A stretch of 64,000 nt of DNA from Mesorhizobium sp. NZP2298. GTDB lineage: Bacteria > Pseudomonadota > Alphaproteobacteria > Rhizobiales > Rhizobiaceae. The translations under genes were made by a program, and so were the position numbers. The stretch lies in NCBI RefSeq assembly GCF_013170825.1, contig NZ_CP033365.1, forward strand, positions 3,360,001-3,424,000. Direction: 5' to 3'. The notes beneath the pieces are model-generated. The model saw only the letters and a program-made list of their open reading frames with translations. It was not told the origin of the DNA and ran no database searches. This document shows, piece after piece, positions 9,235 to 22,609 of this stretch (position 1 is its first letter; every line of letters begins with the position of its first letter).

Positions 9235-10122
9235 TCAGGCCGGCCGGTAAACCCGTTCCGCCGTGTTCCAGAAGATGTCGGCCTCGGCGGCCGCGCCGTG
9301 CTTCGCTACAGCTTCGCGGTGCGCCTTGATCAGCTCGGCGTGGCTGGTCCAGAGCTTCTCGATCGGGAAGTTCGAACCGAACATCAGATGATCGGAACCC
9401 AGGATATCGATCGCGTTGTCGACGATATAGGCGATGAGCGCCGGGTCATTGCGGTGGACGAAGGTGCCGAGACCGGAGAGCTTGGCATAGAGATTGGGTG
9501 CCGCTGAGAGCGTGCGCAACCCCGCCTTCCAGGCCTCGGTGGTCTCTTGATCCGTGCCGGTCAGCATGCCGGCATGGGTGAGGATGAAGCTGGTCTCGGG
9601 ATTCTCCCCGACCAGCGTCAGCCCGTCCTTCATCTGGGCGGGGAAGAGCTGCAGGTCGAAAGACAGGCCATAGTCCTTCAGCCTCGCGACGTTGGCGCGC
9701 ACTTTTGGGTCGATGACCTGGTCGGCCGAAGCGGCGAAGCGGAAGGCCTGCGTTTCATGCCAGTGCAGCTGCATGCGCACGCCGCGCAGCAGTTTGTATT
9801 TCATCAGCCGGTCGATCTGGGGCCTGACATCATCCACCGTCATGTCGGCATAGCCGACGATGGCGTGCGGCCAGCCGGTTTCATCGGCTGTCTTCTGCAG
9901 GAAGGCGACCTCTTTCTCGAAATCCTCCTTCGCCCAGTTGGTCTGGACATAGACGGCCTTTTCGACGCCTGATCCCTTCTGGTCGTCGAGGAATTCGCCG
10001 ATCGGATAATCGCGGCGGATCGGCTCATAGGGGCCGAAGATGCGCGGCACCATCGGCCCGACCAGCCAGGGCTGGTCCTTCTGGCGCCAGATGTGGAAAT
10101 GCGCGTCGATGGCTTTTTGCAT
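9235..10122 (-). CDS. Amidohydrolase family protein (Amidohydrolase_2)
   Basis: A 295-residue TIM-barrel metal hydrolase. DAHFHIW at the N-terminus is the metal-binding HxH motif; FILTHAGM and GSDHLMFGSNFP carry the later His and Asp ligands. Relatives include 2-pyrone-4,6-dicarboxylate and sulfomuconolactone hydrolases and fuconolactonases, so a lactone or cyclic amide is a likely substrate class. It is the last gene of the molybdenum-hydroxylase operon: its ATG (10122-10120) overlaps the stop of the VWA gene. This suggests it hydrolyses the ring or lactone made after hydroxylation, which is an inference. Confidence 0.87.
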   Translation of the reverse strand: MQKAIDAHFHIWRQKDQPWLVGPMVPRIFGPYEPIRRDYPIGEFLDDQKGSGVEKAVYVQTNWAKEDFEKEVAFLQKTADETGWPHAIVGYADMTVDDVRPQIDRLMKYKLLRGVRMQLHWHETQAFRFAASADQVIDPKVRANVARLKDYGLSFDLQLFPAQMKDGLTLVGENPETSFILTHAGMLTGTDQETTEAWKAGLRTLSAAPNLYAKLSGLGTFVHRNDPALIAYIVDNAIDILGSDHLMFGSNFPIEKLWTSHAELIKAHREAVAKHGAAAEADIFWNTAERVYRPA

Positions 10123-11249
10123 CAGGAAACCCTCTTCCAGATTGTCGATGCCTCGGGGGCGGGACGGGCGAGCGACAGGATGAAATCGGTGAGGCTGGTC
10201 AACGACGAGCCATCGATGAGGTCGTCGAGATCAGGCAGGATGGCGCGTAGCGCCGCAGTGGCTGGCCGGAAGCGCGGGTCGCCGGCCAAGGGTGTGGCCA
10301 GCGACAGCCGGAAGGCGCGGGCGCTCAGCCTGCGTATGGCCGTCTCCAACTCGGCATGGTCGCCGCGCTCCAGCGCATCGGACAAAATGATCACGGCTGC
10401 GCCGCGTGCAAAGGCGGAAAAACGCGGCACCGAGAGGAAAGCGAGCAGCGTCGGCCCCATGCGGGTGCCGCCGTCCCAGTCGTCGACCTGGGCCGCCGCG
10501 CGCGCCAGCGCCTGATCGCGGTCGCGGATGCGCAGTGCCGTGGTGATGCGGGTCAGCCTTGTGCCGAAGGTGAAGATCTCGGCGCGGTCGGCGCCTTGCA
10601 CTGCGGCATGCGCCAGCTTGAGATAGTCCGCCGTATGCAGCTTCATCGAGCCGGAGACGTCTATCAGCAGCAGCAGCTTGCGGGGCACGGTCTGGCGGCG
10701 ACGCAACAGCGGTGAGGGCACGTCGCCATCGGCGCTGACGATTTCGCGCAGCGAGCGGCGCAGATCGAGCTTGCCGCGCGAAGGGGTGCGCACGGTGCGG
10801 AAGGAGCGGCGGGCGGGCAGGGCCGACGGGAGCCTCCGTTGAAAGGCGGTCAGCCTGTCCTCGTCGCGCTGGAAGTCGCGGCTGCTCAATTGCTCCAGGG
10901 CCGAGGACAGTTCGCCGCCTTCCTGGCTGTGCTCGGCTTCAATCCGCTCGTCATCAGCGCCGCCATCATCCTTGACGCGGGTTTCCTCGTCCGCGTCGCC
11001 TTCGACCACGGCTGAAGCGTTGCCGTAGAAATGGCTCTGGAAATGCGCTTCGAATTCGTCGCGGCGATCGGGCGGCGGTGCCAGCGTGGCAAGGGCCGCC
11101 TCACGGATATCGGCCATCGACCGGGGACCGAGCAATGTCACCGCCCGCATGAAGCCGGAGACTTGCTCGGGGGCGATGGCAAAGCCGTAGCGGCGCAGCA
11201 GCCGACCGAAGCCGAGGAAGGGCGTTGCGGCGCGGGGCAAGGCGCTCAC
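10122..11249 (-). CDS. VWA domain protein, CoxE-like
   Basis: A 375-residue protein with a C-terminal von Willebrand A domain. The MIDAS motif is LLLIDVSGSMKLH (DxSxS), with DGGTRMGPTL giving a later metal ligand. The N-terminal part (FGRLLRRYGFAIAPEQVSGFM) resembles the CoxE family. I start it at the GTG at 11249, which overlaps the stop of the MoxR gene (GTGA); the longer upstream reading is unlikely because it runs through the ATPase. In CO dehydrogenase operons, CoxD (MoxR) and CoxE (VWA) act together in maturing the active site. The same pair is linked here to a molybdenum hydroxylase. Confidence 0.85.
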   Translation of the reverse strand: MSALPRAATPFLGFGRLLRRYGFAIAPEQVSGFMRAVTLLGPRSMADIREAALATLAPPPDRRDEFEAHFQSHFYGNASAVVEGDADEETRVKDDGGADDERIEAEHSQEGGELSSALEQLSSRDFQRDEDRLTAFQRRLPSALPARRSFRTVRTPSRGKLDLRRSLREIVSADGDVPSPLLRRRQTVPRKLLLLIDVSGSMKLHTADYLKLAHAAVQGADRAEIFTFGTRLTRITTALRIRDRDQALARAAAQVDDWDGGTRMGPTLLAFLSVPRFSAFARGAAVIILSDALERGDHAELETAIRRLSARAFRLSLATPLAGDPRFRPATAALRAILPDLDDLIDGSSLTSLTDFILSLARPAPEASTIWKRVS

Positions 11250-12127
11250 GCAAGCGCCTCCTCGACAATCCGGCCGAGTTCCGGCGCGATATAGGACAGG
11301 TCTTCCTCGTCCTTGATCAGCACGCCGATGGCGCGGCGGAAGGCTTCGGGCCATGGGCTGCCACCCCTTTCGAGGATGGTGGCGGCATTGGCCCATTCGA
11401 CCGCCTCGGCGATGCCGGGCGGCTTGGCCAGCGGGCGGGCGCGGATGGTCTGCACGGCTGCAGCAACGGCGCGCGCGGTGCCTTCAGCGACATCGCCGGC
11501 ACGCAGCATGATGATGGCGGCTTCGCGCTCGGCATCGGGATAACCGATCCAGTGATAGACGCAACGCCGGCGCAGGGCTTCGGCAAGTTCGCGGGTGCGG
11601 TTGGAGGTCAGGATGACAATCGGCTGCGCGGCGGCGCGGATGGTGCCGCGCTCGGGGATGCTGATCTGGAAATCGGAGAGGAATTCGAGCAGCAGCGCTT
11701 CGAATTCGTGGTCGGAACGGTCGATCTCATCGACCAGCAGCACGCGTTGCTCCGGTGCCCGCAACACCTGAAGGAGCGGACGGGCGATCAGGAAGCGGTC
11801 GTCGTAAATGTCGATTTCGTGTTCGCCGGCATGGCGGATGGCGAGCAACTGGCGCTGGTAGTTCCATTCGTAGAGCGCATGCGCGGCGTCGATGCCTTCA
11901 TAGCATTGCAGGCGTACCAGATCGCGGCCGAGCAGCTCGGCGACAGCCTTCGCGGCCTCGGTCTTGCCGACGCCCGGCGCCCCTTCGAGCAGCAGCGGCT
12001 TGCCGAGCCGGATCGCCAGGAATATGGCGGTGGCCAGGCTGTCGTCGGCCAGATAGCGCGAGGCGGCGAGATGCGACGCCACCGCCTCCGGTGAGGTCGC
12101 GACAGTCTCGGCGTTTACCTCGGGCAT
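11246..12127 (-). CDS. MoxR-family AAA+ ATPase, CoxD-like
   Basis: A 293-residue AAA+ ATPase. Walker A is GAPGVGKT at 49-56, Walker B is RVLLVDEIDRSD, and sensor-1 is PIVILTSNRTREL. These match the MoxR/CoxD subgroup, which works with VWA partners to insert or remodel metal centres. The ATG at 12127 gives MPEVNAETVATSPEAV and follows the molybdopterin gene's stop by 1 base; the longer frame into that gene is rejected. The likely partner is the VWA protein just downstream, and the likely client is the molybdopterin subunit upstream. Confidence 0.9.
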   Translation of the reverse strand: MPEVNAETVATSPEAVASHLAASRYLADDSLATAIFLAIRLGKPLLLEGAPGVGKTEAAKAVAELLGRDLVRLQCYEGIDAAHALYEWNYQRQLLAIRHAGEHEIDIYDDRFLIARPLLQVLRAPEQRVLLVDEIDRSDHEFEALLLEFLSDFQISIPERGTIRAAAQPIVILTSNRTRELAEALRRRCVYHWIGYPDAEREAAIIMLRAGDVAEGTARAVAAAVQTIRARPLAKPPGIAEAVEWANAATILERGGSPWPEAFRRAIGVLIKDEEDLSYIAPELGRIVEEALA

Positions 12128-12128
12128 G

Positions 12129-13133
12129 TCAGTTCGCCGCTTGCGCCTTGAGCGCGCGCAGGATGCGTTCGGGTGTGATCGGCAGCGTGTCGATGCGCAC
12201 GCCGACGGCGTCGAAGACGGCGTTGGCGACTGCCGGTATCTGCGGATTGGCGCACATTTCGCCCGGCCCCTTGGCACCGTAGGGACCATCCGCCGAGGGC
12301 CGCTCCAGAACGATGATCTCAGTCTTGGCAAGGTCGCCTGGCCCCGGCATCAGATACTGGTTGAAGTCGGTGCCGCCATGATCGCGGTTGGGGTAGTAGG
12401 GCTCGGTCGTCTCGTAGAGCGCGTGGCTGATGCCCATCCAGGAGCCGCCGACCAGTTGCTGCTCGACCATCTTCGGGTTCAGTGCGCGGCCGATCTCGAA
12501 GACGTTCTTGACCGTCAGCACCGTGACCTCGCCGGTCTCGTCGTCGACTTCGACCTCGGCCACGGTGCAGGCATGCGCGTAGCAGGTCGATGGCTTCATC
12601 GCGCCGGTTTCCTTCTCGGGATAGGAACGCGGGATCAGGAACATGCCGCGCCCCGAGATCGAGCGGCCGCGCTTGAAATGCGCCGACAGCGCGACATCGA
12701 AGATCGAGATCGATTTCTGCGGCGCGCCCTTGACCAGTATGTTGCCCTGACCGTCGGTCTCCAGATCGGAGGCGTTGACCTCAAGTTCTTCCGCCGCCAC
12801 TTCCAGCATCACCTGGCGCGCCTCTTTCGCGGCCTGGATGACCGCATTGCCGGCGCGATGCGTGCCGCGCGAGGCGAAGGTACCCATGCAATGCGGGCCG
12901 GTATCGGTGTCGGCGGTGTCGACGACGACGCGGTCGGTCGGCACGCCGATGGTTTCGGCGCAGATCTGCGCCATGATCTGCTTCATGCCCTGGCCGAGAT
13001 CGACCGACGACAGCGTCACCATGAAATTGCCGGTCGGTGTCGAGTGGACCAGCGCCTGGGTCGGGTCGCCGCCGAGATTCATGCCGGTGGGATAGTTGAT
13101 CGCGGCGACGCCGCGTCCGCGCCTGATCGCCAT
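12129..13133 (-). CDS. Molybdopterin-binding subunit, C-terminal half (xanthine dehydrogenase family)
   Basis: A 334-residue protein equal to the second molybdopterin domain of the xanthine dehydrogenase family. It has SSVDLGQGMKQIMAQICAE (Moco contact), DTDTGPHCMGTFASRGTH, and GAKGPGEMC near the end. The last matches the GxKGxGE segment holding the catalytic Glu. Normally this domain is fused to the N-terminal half (about 770-790 residues in total). Here it begins 1 base after the stop of the partner gene, and GGGAG just upstream can serve as its ribosome site. Natural split subunits are known, for example in nicotinate dehydrogenase, but a frameshift remains possible. Confidence 0.88.
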   Translation of the reverse strand: MAIRRGRGVAAINYPTGMNLGGDPTQALVHSTPTGNFMVTLSSVDLGQGMKQIMAQICAETIGVPTDRVVVDTADTDTGPHCMGTFASRGTHRAGNAVIQAAKEARQVMLEVAAEELEVNASDLETDGQGNILVKGAPQKSISIFDVALSAHFKRGRSISGRGMFLIPRSYPEKETGAMKPSTCYAHACTVAEVEVDDETGEVTVLTVKNVFEIGRALNPKMVEQQLVGGSWMGISHALYETTEPYYPNRDHGGTDFNQYLMPGPGDLAKTEIIVLERPSADGPYGAKGPGEMCANPQIPAVANAVFDAVGVRIDTLPITPERILRALKAQAAN

Positions 13134-13134
13134 C

Positions 13135-14502
13135 TCAAGCTCCCTTCACGTAGGACGACATCGCCATGTATTTCTCCGCCACCGGCCAGTTGGCGGCGCG
13201 CGAGGCTTCCTGCATGCACTCGATGAGTGCTGCCCCTTCCGTCGGCTGGCGATGCGCCTTCATGTCGCCGTCGCGATAGGCGTTGATGAAGCGGAATTCG
13301 AGCGGGTCCATGCCGATCAGCCGTGCCAGCTTGTCCATCTGCACCTCCAGCGCGAAGTCGCCGATGGTGACGCCGAAGCCGCGCATGGCCGACGACGGCG
13401 TGCGGTTGGTGTAGACGCAGTAGGTGTCGATCCACACATTCGGGATTGTGTAGGGGCCGGGATAGTGCCCCGCACCCTTCTGCGCGCCATAGGGCGAGTG
13501 ACGCGAATAGGCGCCGGCATCGGTGTAGCCGGTGACCTTGCGCGCAACGATGCGGCCGTCCTTCATCACGCCATCCTTGATGACCACCTTTTCGGCCGCA
13601 CGGGGTGACGAAATCTGCATCTCCTCCTCGCGGCTGTAGATGAAACAGACCGGTCGCCCGGTCAGCTTGGCGCCGAGGATGGCGATCGGCTCGACGATGA
13701 CGTCGACCTTGCCGCCAAAGCCGCCGCCGACCGTGCCGCCGACGAAATGCAGCTTCGAGCCTGGCATCTGCAGGATGATCGAGGTGTTGTCGAGGGTGAA
13801 GAACATCGCCTGCGTGTTGGTGTAGCAGGTGAAGCGGTCGTTGCCCTCGGGCGCCACGACGCAGCCGGTGGTCTCGGTCGGCGCATGCTCGATCGGCGAG
13901 GACTGATAGCTTTGTTCCAGGATGTGGTCAGCGCCGGCGAAGCCGGCCTCGACATCGCCGAAGCGCACCTTGCGGCACTCGCCGCTGTCATAGAGATAGT
14001 AGTTCTGGCCGTGATATTCGTTGACCAAAGGCGCGCCGGGCTTCAGCGCTTCCTCCATGTCGAAGACGGCCGGCAGCACTTCATAGTCGACCTTGACCTT
14101 CGCCGCGGCTTCCTGCGCGGCGCGCTCCGTCTCGGCCAGCACCGCCACCACGGCCTCGCCCTTCCAGCGCACCTTGCCGTCGGCCAGCACCGTCTCGTCC
14201 TCAGGACCGACCTGGATCAGGATCAGGATGGTGTAGACATTGTGCGGCACGTCCTTGGCGGTCAGCACTTTGACCACGCCCGGATGTTTCTCCGCCTCCG
14301 ACGTGTCGATCGAACGGATGCGGGCGTGATGGTGCGGACTGCGCACCATCTTCAGGTGCAGCATGCCGGGAAAGTTGCGGTCGGCGAAAAAAGCTGTCTT
14401 GCCGGTGACATGGCCGGGCGAATCCGAACGGGGCCTCGGCTGGCCGATCTCGTGCAGATCGTCCTTGCGAACATCGGCGAAGTAGTTCTTGCGCAGTTCC
14501 AT
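13135..14502 (-). CDS. Molybdopterin-binding subunit, N-terminal half (xanthine dehydrogenase family)
   Basis: A 455-residue protein covering the hammerhead domain and first molybdopterin domain. Visible features are TGKTAFFADRNFPGMLHLKM (hammerhead), VGGTVGGGFGGK (Moco contact), and SSAMRGFGV with the substrate-site Arg of xanthine dehydrogenases. The CO dehydrogenase active-site loop with Cys (AYxCSFR) is absent, so this is not a CO oxidiser. It ends with VKGA at the linker just before the second domain, supplied by the next gene. Together they total 789 residues, the usual length of the single-chain subunit. The substrate is unknown, probably an N-heterocycle, aldehyde or purine-like compound. 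Confidence 0.9.
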   Translation of the reverse strand: MELRKNYFADVRKDDLHEIGQPRPRSDSPGHVTGKTAFFADRNFPGMLHLKMVRSPHHHARIRSIDTSEAEKHPGVVKVLTAKDVPHNVYTILILIQVGPEDETVLADGKVRWKGEAVVAVLAETERAAQEAAAKVKVDYEVLPAVFDMEEALKPGAPLVNEYHGQNYYLYDSGECRKVRFGDVEAGFAGADHILEQSYQSSPIEHAPTETTGCVVAPEGNDRFTCYTNTQAMFFTLDNTSIILQMPGSKLHFVGGTVGGGFGGKVDVIVEPIAILGAKLTGRPVCFIYSREEEMQISSPRAAEKVVIKDGVMKDGRIVARKVTGYTDAGAYSRHSPYGAQKGAGHYPGPYTIPNVWIDTYCVYTNRTPSSAMRGFGVTIGDFALEVQMDKLARLIGMDPLEFRFINAYRDGDMKAHRQPTEGAALIECMQEASRAANWPVAEKYMAMSSYVKGA

Positions 14503-14514
14503 TCTCTTGTTCCC

Positions 14515-14997
14515 TCAAGCCGCGTTCTGAGAGTTGGACCGCGCGGCGGTGAGCACCGCCTGGATGATCGGCTCGTAGCCGGTGCAGCGGCAGATGTTGC
14601 CCGACAGCGCCTCGACCACGTCGCCGCGGGTGGGGTTGGGCGTGTGGTCGAGCAGTACCTTGGCCGCCATGATCATGCCCGGCGTGCAGAAGCCGCACTG
14701 CGTGGCGAACGTGTCGAGGAAAGCGCGCTGCAGCGGATGCAGGACGCCGCCCTCGGCGAGGCCCGATGTCGTGGTGATGGCTGTTCCGCTGCAAGTTTCA
14801 GCCAAGGTCAGGCAAGACAGCCGGAGCTCGCCGTCGATGATGACGGAGCAGGCGCCGCAAGTGCCCTGGTGGCAGCCGCCTTTCGGCGAAGTGTCGCCGA
14901 TCTTGTCGCGCAAGGCGTTGAGCAGCGTCGTGCCACTGTCGATGAATTCGGCTTTTTCGGAGCCGTTGAGCGTGAATTGAACCGGGACCTTCGCCAT
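14515..14997 (-). CDS. (2Fe-2S)-binding subunit of molybdenum hydroxylase (CoxS-like)
   Basis: A 160-residue iron-sulfur subunit carrying both clusters. C42, C47, C50 and C62 bind the plant-ferredoxin-type 2Fe-2S centre. C101, C104, C136 and C138 (CGFCTPG, then NICRCTGY) bind the second centre next to the molybdopterin. All eight Cys are present. It relays electrons from the molybdenum site to the FAD subunit. It lies between the FAD and molybdopterin genes, the CoxM-CoxS-CoxL order. The gap to the molybdopterin gene is only 12 bases. Confidence 0.95.
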   Translation of the reverse strand: MAKVPVQFTLNGSEKAEFIDSGTTLLNALRDKIGDTSPKGGCHQGTCGACSVIIDGELRLSCLTLAETCSGTAITTTSGLAEGGVLHPLQRAFLDTFATQCGFCTPGMIMAAKVLLDHTPNPTRGDVVEALSGNICRCTGYEPIIQAVLTAARSNSQNAA

Positions 14998-15058
14998 GTT
15001 TCCTCCTTGCGCGTCCGTCCGAAGGATCGGACAGACGCGCGCCCCCCAACTCGTTATT

Positions 15059-15853
15059 TCAACTCAGCAGCAGCCGGCCGAGATGGACCGGCAGCACTTC
15101 GGCGCGATACCAGGCGCTGGCGATCGGATCGGTGATAGGCGTGGTGCCTTCGGTGGAGGCGGCCAGTGCTGCCGCGATGCCGCCCTGGTCGAGCGACTTT
15201 CCCTTGAGCGCCTTTTCCGCCGCCCTGGCCCGTATCGGCCGGTCAGCCATGCAGCCAAGTGCGATCCGTGCCGAAGAGACGGTGCCGTCCGCGGCCTGCT
15301 CCAGAACGGTGGCGATGCTCAGCACCGAGACGCCCTTGGGCTTGATCCGCGATACTTTCAGGAAGCGGAAGCCGTCGGCCTTCGGCAGCGTGAAGGCGAC
15401 CGACGTGACAATGGCGTGGCTGTCGTCCCGCCCGGCCAGGAAGGTCTCGATCGGCAATTCGCCATCATCGGTTCCGACCGTGGCGTCGAGCGCCAGCAGG
15501 GCAACGGCGAAATCGCCGTAGGGCGCGGGCGCGAACAGATTGCCGCCGACGGTTGCCATGTTGCGCACCGCCGGGCCGCCGACGGCGCGCGCGGCCTTGG
15601 CGAGCGTGCCGAGTTCCGGATGGCGCGCGATCGCCGCCATGGTCACCGAGGCGCCGATGCGGATCTTGCCGTCGGCGACCGTGATGGCCAACAGGGTCGG
15701 GTCGGTTGACCTGACAAGACCGGAGACCGAGACATCGCCTTCATTGGCCGCGCGGACCACGAGTGTGCCGCCACCGAGATAGCGGGTGCCGGCCGTCTTC
15801 AACGCGGCATTGGCGTCCTTCACGGTCGGGAATGTCTGGAGGGCAAGCGCCAT
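15059..15853 (-). CDS. FAD-binding subunit of molybdenum hydroxylase (CoxM-like)
   Basis: A 264-residue flavoprotein subunit of the xanthine dehydrogenase/CO dehydrogenase medium-chain family. The two FAD pyrophosphate motifs are GTRYLGGGTLVVRA and NMATVGGNLFAPAPYGD. The C-terminal CO_deh_flav_C domain begins around the KADGFRFLKVSRI region. It passes electrons from the 2Fe-2S subunit to an external acceptor. It is the first enzyme-subunit gene of the operon after the SRPBCC gene, and 61 bases separate it from the 2Fe-2S gene. Confidence 0.93.
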   Translation of the reverse strand: MALALQTFPTVKDANAALKTAGTRYLGGGTLVVRAANEGDVSVSGLVRSTDPTLLAITVADGKIRIGASVTMAAIARHPELGTLAKAARAVGGPAVRNMATVGGNLFAPAPYGDFAVALLALDATVGTDDGELPIETFLAGRDDSHAIVTSVAFTLPKADGFRFLKVSRIKPKGVSVLSIATVLEQAADGTVSSARIALGCMADRPIRARAAEKALKGKSLDQGGIAAALAASTEGTTPITDPIASAWYRAEVLPVHLGRLLLS

Positions 15854-15878
15854 GGAACACTCCTGTTCTCAGCCCGAT

Positions 15879-16322
15879 TCAGCTCTGGCCGGCAAAGTGG
15901 CTCTTCAGGGCGTTGAAGCCGCCCTGGAAGACATTGGCGCCCATGCCCTCGGCCAGCTTGTCCGCATCCTCCGGGGCGGCGTCGAAGCTGGCGGTCCATT
16001 CGGCATAGGTACGGTCGCCATCGGTGACGCGCCGAAGCTGCAGCGTCGCCTTGTGGTTGGTGAGCGGCTGCGGCGTTTCGAGGATGGAATAGCTGACGAG
16101 GAAATTGTCGTCGGAGAAGTCGAGCAGTTTTTCACGGATGCGCGCGCCGCTGGCGAGCTGGAAGTTGCGCACGCAGCCGATCGCGGTGGCGTCCTTGCCA
16201 TCCTCGATATGGCTTTCGACCATGCGCGGGTGCCAGCCCGGCAGGCCGTTGAAGTCGCGTATGCGCGCCCAGACTTTCTCGACCGGCGCGTCGATGACGC
16301 TGGAGATGGTGACCTTGGCCAT
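15879..16322 (-). CDS. SRPBCC family protein (CoxG-like)
   Basis: A 147-residue START/SRPBCC-fold protein. It opens with MAKVTISSVIDAPVEKVWAR and continues IRDFNGLPGWHP, the classic start of polyketide-cyclase-like or CoxG-like members, and ends with a long helix (EGMGANVFQGGFNALKSHF). The ATG at 16322 fits the conserved start; a longer frame to 16547 has no support. CoxG proteins occur in CO-dehydrogenase-type operons, where a role in membrane recruitment or quinone delivery has been described. A ligand-binding or membrane-attachment role for the hydroxylase is therefore plausible here. It is the first gene after the AraC regulator. Confidence 0.83.
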   Translation of the reverse strand: MAKVTISSVIDAPVEKVWARIRDFNGLPGWHPRMVESHIEDGKDATAIGCVRNFQLASGARIREKLLDFSDDNFLVSYSILETPQPLTNHKATLQLRRVTDGDRTYAEWTASFDAAPEDADKLAEGMGANVFQGGFNALKSHFAGQS

Positions 16323-16437
16323 ATGATGTTCCCTTGCGAATGATCGTTGTGACAAGGGTAGGGGGCTGGCCCGGGTGACGCTTATCAATGCGTCTTGAGC
16401 GCGTATCAAGGAGTCTGAAAAAACAGGCGGCTTGAGC

Positions 16438-17265
16438 TCAGGCCGTTGCCCGCGCTGCCTCGCGGTAGAGTGTCGGCGGCACGCCGACATGGTCGCGGAA
16501 GAAGCGCGAGAAATTGCCCTGCGTGGTGAAGCCCAGATTGCAGGCAACCGAGATCAGCGGCTCCTGCGACCACTGCAACTGGCGCACCGCTTCTTCCATG
16601 CGCAGCGTGTTCCAGTAGACGTTGGGCGTCAGGTTGGTCTGTTCCTTGAACAAGGCAAAGAAATGCGGCCGCGACAGCCCGACGCTGCGCGCCACGTCAT
16701 CGAACGAGATGCGCTCGCAGACATTGGCCTTCATCAGCTGGATCGCCTTGCGGACACGGAAATCCTGCATCGTGCTGATGCGGATGCGCGTGTCCTGTGG
16801 CGCCGAGGCGTCGGCGGCATCGAGCACGCTATCGATGAAGCGCTCGATCTCGTAATTGGCGACGTCGTCGACGCTTTCATTGTCGGTCAGATGGTCGAGC
16901 AGGCTTGCGGCGGCCTGGTGCAGCCAGGGCTCCAGCGTGATCGCCGCCTGGGCAAACAATGGCGCGGAGGAGGGCAGGTCGCGGCGGCGCCGCGCCCAGT
17001 CGGGATCGATGTAGAAGGCCAGGAACAGGCCCGGCCTGCCATCCTGCGACAGGACGTGGCTGTGCGGTTGCAGAGAATTGATGCCGGCGGCGGTGTGTGG
17101 TCCCAGCCGAACCGTCTCGCGGCCGACCGTCATTTCGCCGGCCGTGCCTTCCAGCCAGATGATCAGGTGTGCCTCGACATGGGCATGGGTGACGAAGTCG
17201 CTTGCGACATTCAGGACAGAAACATGTCCGAACCGGCCCCAGTAGAGCCTGATCGCTTCCGTCAT
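16438..17265 (-). CDS. AraC-family transcriptional regulator
   Basis: A 275-residue regulator. The N-terminal half looks like a cupin-type sensor (HVEAHLIIWLEGTAGEMTVG). The C-terminal 100 residues form the double helix-turn-helix of AraC proteins: FDDVARSVGLSRPHFFALFK and ISVACNLGFTTQGNFSRFFR. CGGGAGGATATACCC gives a strong ribosome site before the ATG at 17265. It lies 115 bp upstream of the molybdenum-hydroxylase operon on the same strand and is the probable activator of that operon, perhaps as its first gene. The inducer is unknown. Confidence 0.93.
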   Translation of the reverse strand: MTEAIRLYWGRFGHVSVLNVASDFVTHAHVEAHLIIWLEGTAGEMTVGRETVRLGPHTAAGINSLQPHSHVLSQDGRPGLFLAFYIDPDWARRRRDLPSSAPLFAQAAITLEPWLHQAAASLLDHLTDNESVDDVANYEIERFIDSVLDAADASAPQDTRIRISTMQDFRVRKAIQLMKANVCERISFDDVARSVGLSRPHFFALFKEQTNLTPNVYWNTLRMEEAVRQLQWSQEPLISVACNLGFTTQGNFSRFFRDHVGVPPTLYREAARATA

Positions 17266-17443: not shown

Positions 17444-18442
17444 TCAATCGCTGCGGCGGAAGTTGCGGATGCGGTCGAACAACACCGCCAGCAAGATGGC
17501 GCCGCCGATGAAGGTGCCCTGCCAGAAGGCGTTGATGCCAAGCAGGCCAAGGCTGTTGCGGATCACCTCGATGAGCGCGGCGCCGACGATGGCACCAAAG
17601 GCGGTGCCGACGCCGCCGGCCAGGTTGGCGCCGCCGATGACGGTGGCTGCGATGACCTGCAGCTCCATGCCGGTGCCGAGATTGGTGGTGACGGCGCCGA
17701 GCCATCCGGTCTGGATGATGCCGGCAATGCCCGCCGACAGCGCCGAGATCATGTAGACGGCGACCTTGATCTGGCGCACCGGCACGCCGGTCAGCGTTGC
17801 AGCGTGCTCGTTGCCACCGATGGCGAAGATGTGGCGGCCGAACTTGGTCCAGCGCAGGACGAAGCCGGTGATCAGCGCCAGCAGGATCATGTAGAGCACC
17901 GGATTGGCGATGCCGAACAGCCAGGCGCCGCCGCCCAACGCCAGCAGCTTGTTGTGGTCCGGCCCGAACTGGAAGACGACGGTGTTGTTGGAGGCGACCA
18001 TGGCCAGGCTGCGGGCAATCGACAGCATGCCGAGCGTCACCACGAAAGGCGGGAAACCGAGATAGGCGATCATGACACCGTTGAAGGCGCCGATGGCAAG
18101 CGCGGTGGCGATGGAGGCCAGGATGCCGATTTCGATCGAATAGCCGGCATGCATGGTGACGGCCAGCACCATCGACGACAGGCACAGCACCGACCCGACC
18201 GACAGGTCGATACCGCCGGTGATGATGACGAAGGTCATGCCGAGCGCGACGATGGCGACGAAGGTGACGTTGCGGGTGATGTTGTAGAGGTTCTTCGAGG
18301 TGGCGAAGGCATCGGTGGCAAACGACAGGAAAATGCAGGCGAGGATGACGGCGATCACCACCCAGAACGTCTGGCTGGAGAACATCCGCGACAGAAAACT
18401 GTGCTGCTTCTGCGCGATCGTCTGGTCAAGGGTGACTGCCAT
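17444..18442 (-). CDS. Sugar ABC transporter permease (RbsC type)
   Basis: A 332-residue inner-membrane permease of the CUT2 family. ITGGIDLSVGSVLCLSSM is the diagnostic RbsC motif, and ATVIGGANLAGGVGTAFGAI is the conserved C-terminal segment. AGGAAAGG precedes the ATG at 18442. It follows the ATPase gene by 61 bases on the same strand. Its binding protein is encoded divergently at 19696. The 178-bp stretch 17266-17443 between this gene and the AraC start carries nothing clear beyond promoter-sized space. Confidence 0.94.
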   Translation of the reverse strand: MAVTLDQTIAQKQHSFLSRMFSSQTFWVVIAVILACIFLSFATDAFATSKNLYNITRNVTFVAIVALGMTFVIITGGIDLSVGSVLCLSSMVLAVTMHAGYSIEIGILASIATALAIGAFNGVMIAYLGFPPFVVTLGMLSIARSLAMVASNNTVVFQFGPDHNKLLALGGGAWLFGIANPVLYMILLALITGFVLRWTKFGRHIFAIGGNEHAATLTGVPVRQIKVAVYMISALSAGIAGIIQTGWLGAVTTNLGTGMELQVIAATVIGGANLAGGVGTAFGAIVGAALIEVIRNSLGLLGINAFWQGTFIGGAILLAVLFDRIRNFRRSD

Positions 18443-18503
18443 TATCGACCTTTCCTGCCGGCGGCGATGCGCGCCAGCGTGGTGAAATACGGGTTTTGCG
18501 CCC

Positions 18504-19247
<744 letters not shown>

Positions 19248-19695
19248 CAGCCTTTGCCTCCCTGTGCTTGCCGCATGCCCGGGACAGGGGCGGCTTTCGC
19301 GTCGCTCTCCCAGCTCCTCCCGGAAACAGCGATGTCAGGCATTTACGCAAATGCCCGTGCGGGCGTCAATTGTCCGATGAATAGGAAATAGGGCAATTGT
19401 CGGACGAATAGGGGATAGCGGTTCCGAAAAATCCGTTTTGTAGGACAAATAGCAATTGACGTTGGCGGCTTGCCGTTATTAGCTGAGGGTCGGAGGAAGA
19501 TTTGCCGGTCCCGAGCCATGATCGACGGCGGGGTCGGCGCGAGATCATCGACCGTGCCGGCGCTGCCGGTCCGGTCGCATCTGGAAATGCTTATCGGTCT
19601 TGCCAGGCGGCACGGGCATTCCCTGCCATCTCGCGTTGGGGCCGATTTGTGTGGCGGGCACGCCGTGTCCGTCTGTTTTTCAAGGGAGGACTGAT
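19248..19695. promoter_or_regulatory. 448-bp divergent promoter region with three operator-like repeats
   Basis: This gene-free stretch separates the ATPase/permease operon (minus) from the binding-protein gene (plus). It carries three related elements: ATTGTCCGATGAAT at 19369-19382, ATTGTCGGACGAAT at 19396-19409, and the inverted repeat TTTGTAGGACAAA at 19437-19449. All resemble the perfect palindrome ATTGTCTGACAAT at 22681-22693. The first two have the same ATAGG sequence directly after them. They are probably binding sites for the FadR-type regulators encoded nearby. The remainder, 19460-19695, holds the binding-protein leader and no credible gene. Confidence 0.6.
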
Positions 19696-20685
19696 ATGAG
19701 GAAAACAGTTTTGCTCGCCGCCGTCGCCGCCATGGCGTTGGGCGCCGGGCCGGCTTTGGCCAAGAAGCAACTCGTCATCGTGGTGAAAGGTCTCGACAAT
19801 CCGTTCTTCGAGGCCATCCACCAGGGCTGCGAGAAATGGAACAAGGAAAACGCCAGCTCGGAATATGAATGCTTCTACACTGGTCCGGCGTCGACTTCCG
19901 ACGAGGCCGGCGAGGCCCAGATCCTTCAGGATATACTGAGCAAGCCTGACACGGCGGCGGTGGCGATCTCGCCGTCCAACGCGCCACTGATCGCGCAGAC
20001 GCTCAAGACCGCCAATCCGACGATCCCGATCATGACCGTCGACGCCGACCTCGCCAAGGAGGACGCAGCCCTTCGCAAGACCTATCTCGGCACCGACAAC
20101 TACCTGATGGGCAAGAAGATCGGCGAATACATCAAGAAGGCCAAGCCGAATGGCGGCACGATCTGCACCATCGAGGGCAACCCGGCAGCCGATAACATCC
20201 TGCGCCGCGCGCAAGGCATGCGCGACGCCCTGACGGGCAAGGAGGGGCTTGCGGCACTCGCAGGCGAAGGCGGCTGGACCGAAGTCGCCGGCTGCCCGGT
20301 GTTCACCAATGACGACGGTGCCAAGGGCGTCCAGGCAATGACCGATATCCTTGCCGCCAACCCCAAGCTCGATGCTTTCGGCATCATGGGTGGCTGGCCG
20401 CTGTTCGGCGCGCCGCAGCCTTATCGCGACCTGGTTGGACCGTTGAAGGACCGGCTGGCCAAGAACGACTTCGTCATCGGTGCCGCCGACACGATCGGCG
20501 ACGAGGTGGCGATCGCCAGGGATGGCCTTGTCACCGCGCTGGTCGGCCAGCGGCCCTTTGAAATGGGCTACAAGGCGCCGTCGGTGATGATCGACCTGAT
20601 CACGGGCAAGAAGGTCGACGATCCGGTCTTCACCGGCCTCGACGAATGCACCAAGGATACGGTCGACACCTGTATCCAGAAGTAG
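19696..20685 (+). CDS. Sugar ABC transporter substrate-binding protein (RbsB type)
   Basis: A 329-residue periplasmic binding protein. I start it at the ATG at 19696, preceded by GGGAGGA; this gives an ideal Sec signal peptide (MRKTVLLAAVAAMALGAGPALA). The mature part is a Peripla_BP_4-type fold: VVKGLDNPFFEAIHQGCEKW, AVAISPSNAPLIAQTL and CTIEGNPAADNILRRAQGM are typical sugar-binding segments. Two extra Cys pairs may form disulfides. It is divergent from its ATPase and permease genes, so the shared 448-bp region probably co-regulates all three. Confidence 0.93.
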   Translation: MRKTVLLAAVAAMALGAGPALAKKQLVIVVKGLDNPFFEAIHQGCEKWNKENASSEYECFYTGPASTSDEAGEAQILQDILSKPDTAAVAISPSNAPLIAQTLKTANPTIPIMTVDADLAKEDAALRKTYLGTDNYLMGKKIGEYIKKAKPNGGTICTIEGNPAADNILRRAQGMRDALTGKEGLAALAGEGGWTEVAGCPVFTNDDGAKGVQAMTDILAANPKLDAFGIMGGWPLFGAPQPYRDLVGPLKDRLAKNDFVIGAADTIGDEVAIARDGLVTALVGQRPFEMGYKAPSVMIDLITGKKVDDPVFTGLDECTKDTVDTCIQK

Positions 20686-20696
20686 GTCTTCGATCC

Positions 20697-20721
20697 GGGG
20701 CGCTCGGCAAACGGGCGCCCC
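20697..20721 (+). terminator. GC-rich hairpin after binding-protein gene
   Basis: GGGGCGC (20697-20703) and GCGCCCC (20715-20721) form a perfect 7-bp stem 12 bases after the stop at 20685. Only GTCAATTCC follows, so the T-run is weak. It may also stabilise the upstream mRNA. Confidence 0.5.
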
Positions 20722-20867
20722 GTCAATTCCTGAGCGAGACGCCGTGGCGAGGGGCAACAGGCTCCGGCCTTGTCGCGTCCATGGTTTGGATTTTCGGCAA
20801 CGGGATCGGCGCGCCACGCAGGTTCGGATCCATCCGGGCGACGGGCAGCCGACCTATTGGAACGTGG

Positions 20868-21650
20868 ATGCCGCACGAGAAGGCAGAAAGAAAAGCCAGC
20901 CGGGCCAAGGCGCAAGCCAGCCGCGATCCGGCGGTCATGCGCAGGGCCGACGCGGCGCACTTTCCCGGATCCAGTGTTCATGCCTCGCTCGCCAGCGAGA
21001 TCGGTCTGCGGATCGTGCGCGGCGATTATCCGCCCGGCAGCATCCTGCCCAACGAGGCCAAATGGGCCGAAACCTTCAATGTCAGCCGTTCGGCGGTGCG
21101 CGAGGCGATCAAGATGCTGATGGCCAAGAGCCTTTTGGCATCACGCCCCAAGATCGGCAGCTGGGTCGAGCCGAAGGAGCGCTGGAACCTGCTCGACCGC
21201 GACGTGCTCGCCTGGTACGCGACCGCGCCCGACCGCGAGGCCTTCCTGCGCACCGTGCAGGAGTTCCGCCATATCATCGAACCGGAAGCGTCGGCCTTTG
21301 CCGCCATGCGGCGCAGCGACGAGCAGATGGCCGAGATCAGCCTTGCCTGCCGCGAGATGGGCGAGGCGGCCAACCTGCCTGAACGCATCCGCGCCGACAC
21401 ACGCTTTCACCTCGCCATCCTGCGGGCCTCGGGCAATGACCTTCTGGTGCCGCTCGGCGTGCTGATCGAGTCCGCGCTCGACCATCTCTTCGTCTTCACC
21501 ACGCGGCAGGTCGGCGACCAGCGGCGAGCGCAGAAACTGCATGAAGCGATCGAGAAGAACATCCGACTGCAACGGCCGGCGGCGGCCCGCAATGCCGTGC
21601 ACAAACTGCTCGCAGACACCGATGAAGGGATTGGAAGCAGGCGGCGGTGA
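20868..21650 (+). CDS. FadR/GntR-family (FCD) transcriptional regulator 1
   Basis: A 260-residue regulator. The winged helix-turn-helix is ASEIGLRIVRGDYPPGSILP followed by VSRSAVREAIKMLMAK. The C-terminal FCD effector domain contains EFRHIIEPEASAFAAM and ADTRFHLAILRASGN, which carry the metal- or ligand-binding Asp and His residues. I choose the ATG at 20868 because the first 46 residues then align without gaps to the paralogue at 23728; a start at 20646 would overlap the binding-protein gene and is rejected. FCD regulators usually repress sugar-acid or carboxylate genes. The candidate operators are the ATTGTC elements at 19369-19449 and 22681-22693. Confidence 0.92.
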   Translation: MPHEKAERKASRAKAQASRDPAVMRRADAAHFPGSSVHASLASEIGLRIVRGDYPPGSILPNEAKWAETFNVSRSAVREAIKMLMAKSLLASRPKIGSWVEPKERWNLLDRDVLAWYATAPDREAFLRTVQEFRHIIEPEASAFAAMRRSDEQMAEISLACREMGEAANLPERIRADTRFHLAILRASGNDLLVPLGVLIESALDHLFVFTTRQVGDQRRAQKLHEAIEKNIRLQRPAAARNAVHKLLADTDEGIGSRRR

Positions 21651-21670
21651 ACCGTCCGGCCGTTTGAGCC

Positions 21671-22609
21671 TCAAATCGTCTGCTTCTTGCCATCCTTCGT
21701 TGGCATCAGGTCGACGCCGTTGATCTTGGCGATATGCGTCGCCAGCATAGGCACGAACTGTTCTGCCGGACCGGTGGCATGGGCGCCGGCGAAGGAATTC
21801 TTGGTGGCGTTGCCGAGCGGGTTGGCGATACCGGCCGCACCCGCCATGGACTCCAGGTACGTCAGGTCCTTGAAGGCGTTGGCGATGGTGAATTTGTGGG
21901 CGTCGCGGTCGCCTTCCAGCGTCCAGCGCATGAAGGTCTGGTAGAAGCCGCAATCCATTCGGCCGTTGCGGATGACGCTGTCGAAACGCGGCGGCGAGAT
22001 GCCGACCTTTTCAGCCAGGGCCAATGCTTCGGAATAGATGGCGGCATAGCCCAGCGAGATGAAGTTGTTGAGCAGTTTCATGCGGTGGCCATCGCCGGTG
22101 TCGCCGATGTGGACGATACGGCCGGCCCAGGTTTCGATCACCGGTTTCACCCGGGCAAAGACGGCATCCGGCGCGCCGACCATGGCATCGAGCGTGCCTT
22201 CCCAGGCCTCCTTCGGGGTGCGGCTCAGCGGCGCATCGACATAGTCGATGCCAAGCGCGTTGAGTTCGGCCGCGAGCGCGACGGTCGAGACCGGGTCCGA
22301 GGTTGAACAGTCGACGACGACCGAACCTTTCTTCAAGCCTTCCTTGAGGCCACCGGGGCCGCGGATGATGGCTTCCACTTCGCGCGACCCGGTGACGCAG
22401 ATGAAAACAATATCAGACGCCGCCGCGACATCGCGCGAGGTCGATGCTTCCCTGGCGCCTCGGCCAAGAAGGTCCTCCGCCGGCTTGCGGTTCTTGCGGC
22501 CAAGGAATGTCAGGGGATAGCCCTTGTCGACGATGTTCTTGGCAATGCCGTGCCCCATCAGGCCAAGGCCGATGAAGCCGATCGTCTCGCGCGCGGCGGA
22601 GGTGTTCAT
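21671..22609 (-). CDS. NAD(P)-dependent oxidoreductase, 3-hydroxyisobutyrate dehydrogenase family
   Basis: A 312-residue beta-hydroxyacid dehydrogenase. It has the Rossmann motif IGFIGLGLMGHG at the N-terminus and DAPLSRTPKEAWEGTLDAMV in place of the usual DAPVSGG substrate loop. KLLNNF carries the catalytic Lys. The altered loop suggests a substrate other than 3-hydroxyisobutyrate, perhaps a tartronate-semialdehyde or sugar-acid derivative. It is convergent with the regulator at 20868 and divergent from the epimerase gene, sharing the promoter region 22610-22728 with its two palindromes. Confidence 0.88.
   Translation of the reverse strand: MNTSAARETIGFIGLGLMGHGIAKNIVDKGYPLTFLGRKNRKPAEDLLGRGAREASTSRDVAAASDIVFICVTGSREVEAIIRGPGGLKEGLKKGSVVVDCSTSDPVSTVALAAELNALGIDYVDAPLSRTPKEAWEGTLDAMVGAPDAVFARVKPVIETWAGRIVHIGDTGDGHRMKLLNNFISLGYAAIYSEALALAEKVGISPPRFDSVIRNGRMDCGFYQTFMRWTLEGDRDAHKFTIANAFKDLTYLESMAGAAGIANPLGNATKNSFAGAHATGPAEQFVPMLATHIAKINGVDLMPTKDGKKQTI

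Follow-up and report, generated by a model that had tools for sequence, protein, structure and literature searches.

Most of what is known of CoxD and CoxE concerns the insertion of copper into CO dehydrogenase (CODH). A 64,000-nucleotide stretch of the genome of Mesorhizobium sp. NZP2298, termed here the window, carries on its minus strand (9235..17265) a cassette in which genes for such a pair lie between those of a molybdenum hydroxylase and a hydrolase. The cassette belongs to a discrete family, described here as new, with a molybdenum subunit made as two chains, a dedicated CoxD/CoxE pair, no linked XdhC gene and a lactonase-type hydrolase. Such a large family, which keeps a CoxD/CoxE clade of its own but has neither the copper loop nor a linked XdhC, allows the possible roles of the pair (copper, sulfur or cofactor insertion, subunit joining) to be told apart, and simple gene deletions in a tractable Mesorhizobium could test them.

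A molybdenum subunit in two chains

The sequence-only reading of this DNA had noted one or more molybdopterin subunits; these proved to be two open reading frames. MoN (455 amino acids, 13135..14502, minus strand) is by alignment the N-terminal half of a molybdenum subunit and has the Pfam domains Ald_Xan_dh_C (hammerhead) and MoCoBD_1. MoC (334 amino acids, 12129..13133, minus strand) aligns with the C-terminal half, and has MoCoBD_2 and the motif GPYGAKGPGE. All coordinates are positions in the window, and gene families were assigned by Pfam search. The stop codon of MoN (13137-13135) is one base away from the ATG of MoC at 13133, and the sequence GGGAG is found just ahead of the stop. GGAG-like sites are present at many of the MoN/MoC junctions inspected.

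The split was surveyed in 146 fetched loci, which represent 131 distinct MoC sequences. Fifty-nine of these belong to a Mesorhizobium-rich block (L076-L140), where MoC is 95-100% identical and all loci carry the name Mesorhizobium except L127, from a Hyphomicrobiales metagenome-assembled genome; 72 lie outside the block. A stop in the MoN frame occurs before or at the MoC start in every one of the 131 distinct relatives, and in 127 it is no more than 17 bases from that start. Given this recurrence, the idea that the two reading frames stem from a frameshift or a pseudogene was rejected. The split is common to relatives in Alphaproteobacteria, an actinomycete and a haloarchaeon. There are four exceptions to the close spacing. 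The MoN reading is broken in L041, and the MoN stop is 773 and 1148 bases upstream of MoC in L201 and L202, respectively, where the gene may be broken or interrupted by an intervening sequence. In L058 (G104:C1), MoN and MoC are separated by a 214-base insertion that by eye contains palindrome-like repeats, and both frames stay open.

Matches to MoC were found in 39 of 199 genomes of the bacterial family (E <= 1e-100), 49 of 297 genomes of the order (E <= 1e-90) and 16 of 398 genomes of a phylum sample (E <= 1e-70), the NZP2298 genome being counted each time. With five candidates scored per genome, the phylum sample gave no MoC match between 8e-151 and 1e-70, and a MoN search of 240 genomes of the class left a gap from 5e-142 to 1e-85. 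Because of these gaps, the split-subunit enzymes are regarded on sequence grounds as a discrete family. Members are also encoded on plasmids of Nonomuraea gerenzanensis (66%) and of the haloarchaeon Salinigranum rubrum (61% identity). The S. rubrum plasmid (L250) has the split enzyme together with SRPBCC and cyclase-family genes, and the presence of the enzyme in a haloarchaeon points to transfer between domains.

The nearest solved chains are those of the nicotinate dehydrogenase (NDH) of Eubacterium barkeri, 3hrd_A for MoN and 3hrd_B for MoC. NDH, too, has its molybdenum subunit in two chains, of 425 and 330 amino acids, with the break at the same MoCoBD_1/MoCoBD_2 border. The two enzymes are nevertheless not sisters. 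In trees of MoN plus MoC the split family forms one clade (support 100), within which the Salinigranum enzyme and two enzymes of genome G1014 fall outside all other members (96* in one tree, 98/97 in the other), whereas NDH joins a fused paralogue from the NZP2298 genome (L259; 98/93). When NDH was forced into the split-family clade, the tree was rejected by the approximately unbiased (AU) test, with a p-AU of 0.0227 and a log-likelihood 29.3 lower. Given the long outgroup branches and the weak support of several deep forks, this rejection of a common origin of the split is of moderate strength. Since the tree does not place NDH and the split family in one clade, two separate origins of the split at this border are probable, and a probable second independent split makes a useful case of convergence.

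Four aligned MoN sequences from a group of 28 loci, clade 3, have a proline-rich tail that ends in SGLRRR or SGTRRR. The lengths of the clade-3 reading frames had raised the suspicion of a CoxS-MoN fusion, which was rejected; the extra length is this C-terminal tail. A predicted structure of MoC alone, with a mean predicted local distance difference test score (pLDDT) of 56.7, was set aside and not used.

Active-site residues

The active-site loop SSAMRGFG comprises MoN residues 370-377 and aligns with the RGFG of xanthine dehydrogenase (XDH). AMRGFG is present in every family member whose loop was read. The alignment shows no cysteine in the window loop and hence no form I CODH loop, AYRCSFR, which is the loop of the CODH in the same genome. 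The sequence-only reading had concluded from the missing cysteine that the enzyme is not a CO dehydrogenase, and this holds; as judged by the loop, a CODH-type copper site is excluded. The loop AYRGAGR, termed form II, is also absent from the window enzyme and is found in paralogues in the NZP2298 genome and in two plasmid enzymes.

MoN Gln231 and MoC Glu292 align with Gln208 and Glu289 of NDH. These two residues, and Arg374 and Phe376 of MoN, are invariant in ten aligned sequences. The catalytic glutamine and glutamate, the MoCoBD domains and the accompanying FAD and [2Fe-2S] subunits place the enzyme in the molybdenum hydroxylase (xanthine oxidase) superfamily.

The earlier assignment to the xanthine type holds for the RGFG loop only. 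The active-site glutamine and glutamate are shared with XDH as well. In XDH, Glu802 and Arg880 form the purine-binding pair. The residue that follows GGGFGGK, Glu802 of bovine XDH, is glutamate in rat XDH (4yrw) and in the XDH paralogue of the NZP2298 genome, leucine in NDH, and valine (Val266) in the window MoN. Valine is also found in the Salinigranum and Nonomuraea members and in those of genomes G957 and G1014. A human XDH chain, 2e1q, has valine at this site as well; it is presumably an engineered mutant. The residue at the Arg880 site is Lys342 in the window MoN and arginine in NDH. Val266 and Lys342 are invariant in the ten aligned sequences, and the Glu802/Arg880 pair is not found. The cassette enzyme further differs from XDH in its split subunit and in its CoxD/CoxE pair. 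These residues point to a pocket that resembles that of NDH rather than the xanthine type, in which the basic residue could bind an acidic substrate.

CoxD, CoxE and their possible role

The CoxD-like gene (11246..12127, minus strand) encodes a MoxR-type AAA+ ATPase (Pfam AAA_5) with the Walker A sequence GAPGVGKT and the Walker B sequence VLLVDE. The adjacent CoxE-like gene (10122..11249, minus strand) encodes a VWA protein with the Pfam domain VWA_CoxE and the sequence DVSGS, the DxSxS part of a metal ion-dependent adhesion site (MIDAS). Its start is an inferred GTG that overlaps the CoxD stop, and the VWA_CoxE score of 157 bits was measured on a longer reading frame, 10122-11396. The two proteins are thus of the MoxR/CoxD and CoxE VWA types. 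The next gene (9235..10122, minus strand) encodes an Amidohydro_2/COG3618 hydrolase (Pfam, 131 bits).

That CoxD and CoxE accompany a hydroxylase without the copper loop had been noticed from the window alone, and this association is conserved. Linked CoxD genes occur in 126 of the 131 distinct loci, the exceptions being L073, L204, L250, L266 and L267. CoxE is present in 121, with a contig end in six and absence in four; the figures for the hydrolase are the same, and it is absent from L076 (no match within 8 kb), L204, L250 and L266. All three occur together in 120 of the 131 loci, and in 64 of the 72 outside the Mesorhizobium-rich block. In the CoxD tree the cassette proteins (26 rows) group as a single clade (96/96), separate from the CoxD of the CODH in the NZP2298 genome. 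The branching order in this clade is largely that of the enzymes, actinomycete included; L190 and L191 are paired in the enzyme tree and unpaired in the CoxD tree.

By the sequence-only reading, homologues regularly found without the MoxR/VWA pair and fully active would have refuted its interpretation. Five of the 131 distinct enzymes lack a linked CoxD, and one of these five is accompanied by a cassette-type set on another contig. This is L204, in genome G315, where CoxD, CoxE and hydrolase genes, with no molybdenum subunit in the fetched stretch, include a CoxD of the cassette clade. An initial assignment of loss in G315 was accordingly revised. Genome G055 has a clean junction between MoC and the hydrolase gene, and an orphan-type CoxD-CoxE-XdhC set elsewhere. 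G1014 has another CoxD-CoxE pair elsewhere in its genome. A search of the Salinigranum plasmid revealed no VWA_CoxE match, and a short antisense CoxD match in that locus (residues 26-95) was taken to be another ATPase. The simplest history would be a single gain of CoxD/CoxE before the CoxD-bearing clade spread, followed by co-inheritance, with G055 losing the pair; the basal lines may conceivably have lost it as well.

The sequence-only reading considered it unusual for CoxD and CoxE to occur with an enzyme that lacks copper. This did not survive comparison with other pairs, since annotated records already show CoxD/CoxE in settings other than copper enzymes. Eight of 53 plasmid records found were read, leaving out four split-family records. 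In one, the nicotine plasmid pAO1, MoxR, VWA and XdhC genes lie beside 6-hydroxypseudooxynicotine dehydrogenase (KDH), which has the loop AYRAPGR. In three the pair accompanies YRCSFR enzymes, in two AYRGAGR enzymes, and in two there is no annotated molybdenum subunit within 7 kb. Genome G964 has a pair beside a fused AFRGFG enzyme. The NZP2298 genome itself encodes a form I CODH accompanied by separate CoxD, CoxE and XdhC genes (L258, G000:C1:4978000-4997000), and an orphan CoxD-CoxE-XdhC set (L263, G000:C1:4662559-4665763) with no molybdenum subunit detected in the 19 kb fetched. That the cassette enzyme lacks the copper site and yet travels with a pair of its own suggests that the job of these helper proteins is wider than copper, as the related plasmids had already hinted.

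XdhC is present in all eight plasmid records. Among seven further non-cassette pairs it accompanies L258, L263, L268, L300 and L302 and is missing from L299 and L301. Thus 13 of 15 non-cassette pairs examined have an XdhC neighbour, and the notion that all of them do was rejected. By comparison, a profile of ten XdhC proteins, which found the controls in the NZP2298 and G964 genomes, detected no XdhC/CoxF-like reading frame in the 146 split-family loci, within a reach of about 10 kb (median) each way that fell below 3 kb downstream in seven and upstream in five of 131. The missing XdhC is not special by itself, because six of the seven scanned molybdenum loci without CoxD/CoxE in the NZP2298 genome (L256, L257, L259-L262) lack it too; L255 has one.

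The cassette shares with the form I CODH cox cluster of Afipia carboxidovorans (pHCG3B) the M-S-L-D-E gene order, which in the cassette reads M-S-MoN-MoC-D-E, and a CoxG-type gene, and differs from it by AMRGFG in place of AYRCSFR, by the split subunit and by the terminal hydrolase. In A. carboxidovorans an XdhC gene follows E; the cassette has none linked, and thus does not have the form I order with CoxF. The likeness to a cox cluster proposed earlier is therefore partial: the M-S-L-D-E order stands, but E is followed by an amidohydrolase gene, with XdhC missing, and the CoxG-like gene lies upstream. The pAO1 cluster is similar in that a non-CO molybdenum hydroxylase has MoxR, VWA and SRPBCC genes adjoining, and different in its fused subunit, AYRAPGR loop, XdhC gene and other hydrolases.

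The balance tips slightly towards CoxD and CoxE as a dedicated, ATP-driven assembly or cofactor-loading pair of the two-chain hydroxylase. This is favoured because the split, the pair and the hydrolase are kept together, the cassette CoxD forms a separate clade, and CODH has a pair of its own. The co-inherited AAA+ ATPase and VWA protein would remodel the apo-enzyme, and the molybdenum cofactor would be loaded and activated across the MoN/MoC interface. With the cysteine loop absent, the pair would not insert copper into a CODH-type site. Sulfuration might be carried out in trans by one of the three XdhC proteins encoded elsewhere in the genome, or by CoxD/CoxE. The FAD and [2Fe-2S] subunits, both present, would take the electrons, as in other members of the superfamily. 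CoxG of CO dehydrogenase is linked with electron passage to the membrane quinone, and by analogy the SRPBCC protein may hand electrons to it. The substrate is perhaps a small polar or anionic heterocycle or an aldehyde, whose oxidised product, a lactone or lactam, might be opened by the COG3618 hydrolase.

Several observations weigh against a dedicated assembly pair. Fused enzymes, in G964, pAO1 and A. carboxidovorans, have such pairs too. The three basal enzymes (that of the Salinigranum plasmid and two in G1014) and that of G055 are split and have no linked CoxD/CoxE, which indicates that a split subunit alone needs no linked pair. In addition, the lack of a linked XdhC leaves sulfuration without explanation.

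A serious contender, though an unlikely one, is that CoxD and CoxE are a general activation system of molybdenum hydroxylases, which remodels them for sulfur or metal insertion, and that the cassette pair is just another local copy, not tied in particular to the split. The pairs found with KDH, the two form II enzymes, CODH, the fused AFRGFG enzyme and the two records with no annotated molybdenum subunit all speak for it. The separate, co-inherited clade of cassette CoxD speaks against it, as does the absence of the XdhC neighbour that most other pairs have.

It is also possible, but rather doubtful, that the enzyme is an aldose or sugar-aldehyde dehydrogenase that oxidises a sugar, the COG3618 hydrolase acting as a lactonase on the resulting lactone and opening it. 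The hydrolase model (pLDDT 89) is nearest to the COG3618 structures 4do7 and 4dlf and has the COG3618 fold (4do7_A, query-normalised TM-score 0.80, E 1.5e-17), with pyrone-dicarboxylate hydrolases as lower-ranked matches. It weakly matches the NCBIfam L-fuconolactonase model, at 102 bits, well under the equivalog cut-off of 400. Genes of a ribose/arabinose-type transporter adjoin the cassette in Mesorhizobium, but are mostly not beside it in the other genera fetched, and conserved sugar transport was dropped as a substrate clue. Similarly, clade 3 has a gluconolactonase-type domain, but the same protein has an isochorismatase-type domain that resembles biuret and pyrimidine amidohydrolases, which suggests nitrogen in the substrate.

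Perhaps CoxD and CoxE join two separately made halves of the active site and load the cofactor between them, replacing the linked XdhC-type sulfuration. This is a speculative and decidedly unlikely proposal. If true, the pair would remodel interfaces in molybdenum hydroxylases generally, and the insertion of copper into CODH would be one special use.

Very improbable is an active site with an unusual metal or ligand, different from Mo=S, which CoxD/CoxE would introduce instead of sulfuration of the XdhC type. The consistent absence of XdhC-like reading frames from split-family loci, against their frequency beside other pairs, would fit such a centre, and NDH, the nearest solved enzyme, carries Mo=Se. 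However, the three XdhC genes elsewhere could act in trans, a missing linked XdhC is common (the six molybdenum loci above, and pairs L299 and L301), and the loop has no cysteine to hold copper. There is equally little to recommend a true NDH relative that hydroxylates nicotinate or a near analogue: both halves match NDH best, with the same border, and both enzymes have a hydrophobic residue at the Glu802 site (valine here, leucine in NDH) and a basic one at the Arg880 site (lysine here, arginine in NDH), but NDH groups with the fused paralogue and the AU test rejects one clade.

The rest of the operon and its surroundings

All genes listed in the sequence-only reading were recovered on the minus strand, in the families assigned by Pfam. 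The AraC-family regulator (16438..17265) has the domains HTH_18, HTH_AraC and Cupin_2, and its position is kept in clade-1 relatives. The CoxG-like SRPBCC protein (15879..16322, its start set at the ATG of MAKVTISS) has the domain Polyketide_cyc2, and its best solved match is an SRPBCC family protein. The CoxM-like FAD subunit (15059..15853) has FAD_binding_5 and CO_deh_flav_C, and the CoxS-like [2Fe-2S] subunit (14515..14997) has Fer2_2. The MoC/CoxD, CoxD/CoxE and CoxE/hydrolase junctions abut or overlap, and this close packing fits one coupled operon. The gene set is seen again in many genera and therefore represents more than a chance arrangement.

The genes of the ribose/arabinose-type ABC transporter lie at 17444-22609 of the window, with those of a FadR-type regulator and a 3-hydroxyisobutyrate-dehydrogenase-like protein. 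The regulator and dehydrogenase genes, like the transporter genes, are kept in Mesorhizobium and mostly not in the other genera fetched.

Clade 3 has a set of recurrent neighbours. Of its 28 loci, 27 have a flotillin-type protein and two SRPBCC genes and 25 have the gluconolactonase-isochorismatase protein, the misses being contig ends; 25 have a UPF0261 domain, 24 have a PEP-hydrolase-like protein and 21 have a metallo-lactonase. The flotillin-domain protein, of about 1000 amino acids, lies beside the enzyme (L063, L066, L067, L069 and others), which suggests a membrane scaffold. At L252:3343-5505 and L066:16721-18934, ABC transporter ATPase and UPF0261 (Tm-1-like) domains share one open frame, and the PEP-hydrolase-like gene is nearby in clade 3. 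In clade 2 together with L190 and L191, an EthD-type gene occurs in 10 of 12 loci. Taken with the hydrolase fold and the Salinigranum neighbours, these genes suggest that an oxidised ring product may be opened as a lactone or lactam. One reading frame of a clade-2 cluster, L055:12674-13888, gave no Pfam match. Sets that resemble the orphan CoxD-CoxE-XdhC of the NZP2298 genome are present on S. meliloti pSymB and on a Paroceanicella plasmid, and also bear an NTP-transferase or molybdopterin-binding gene.

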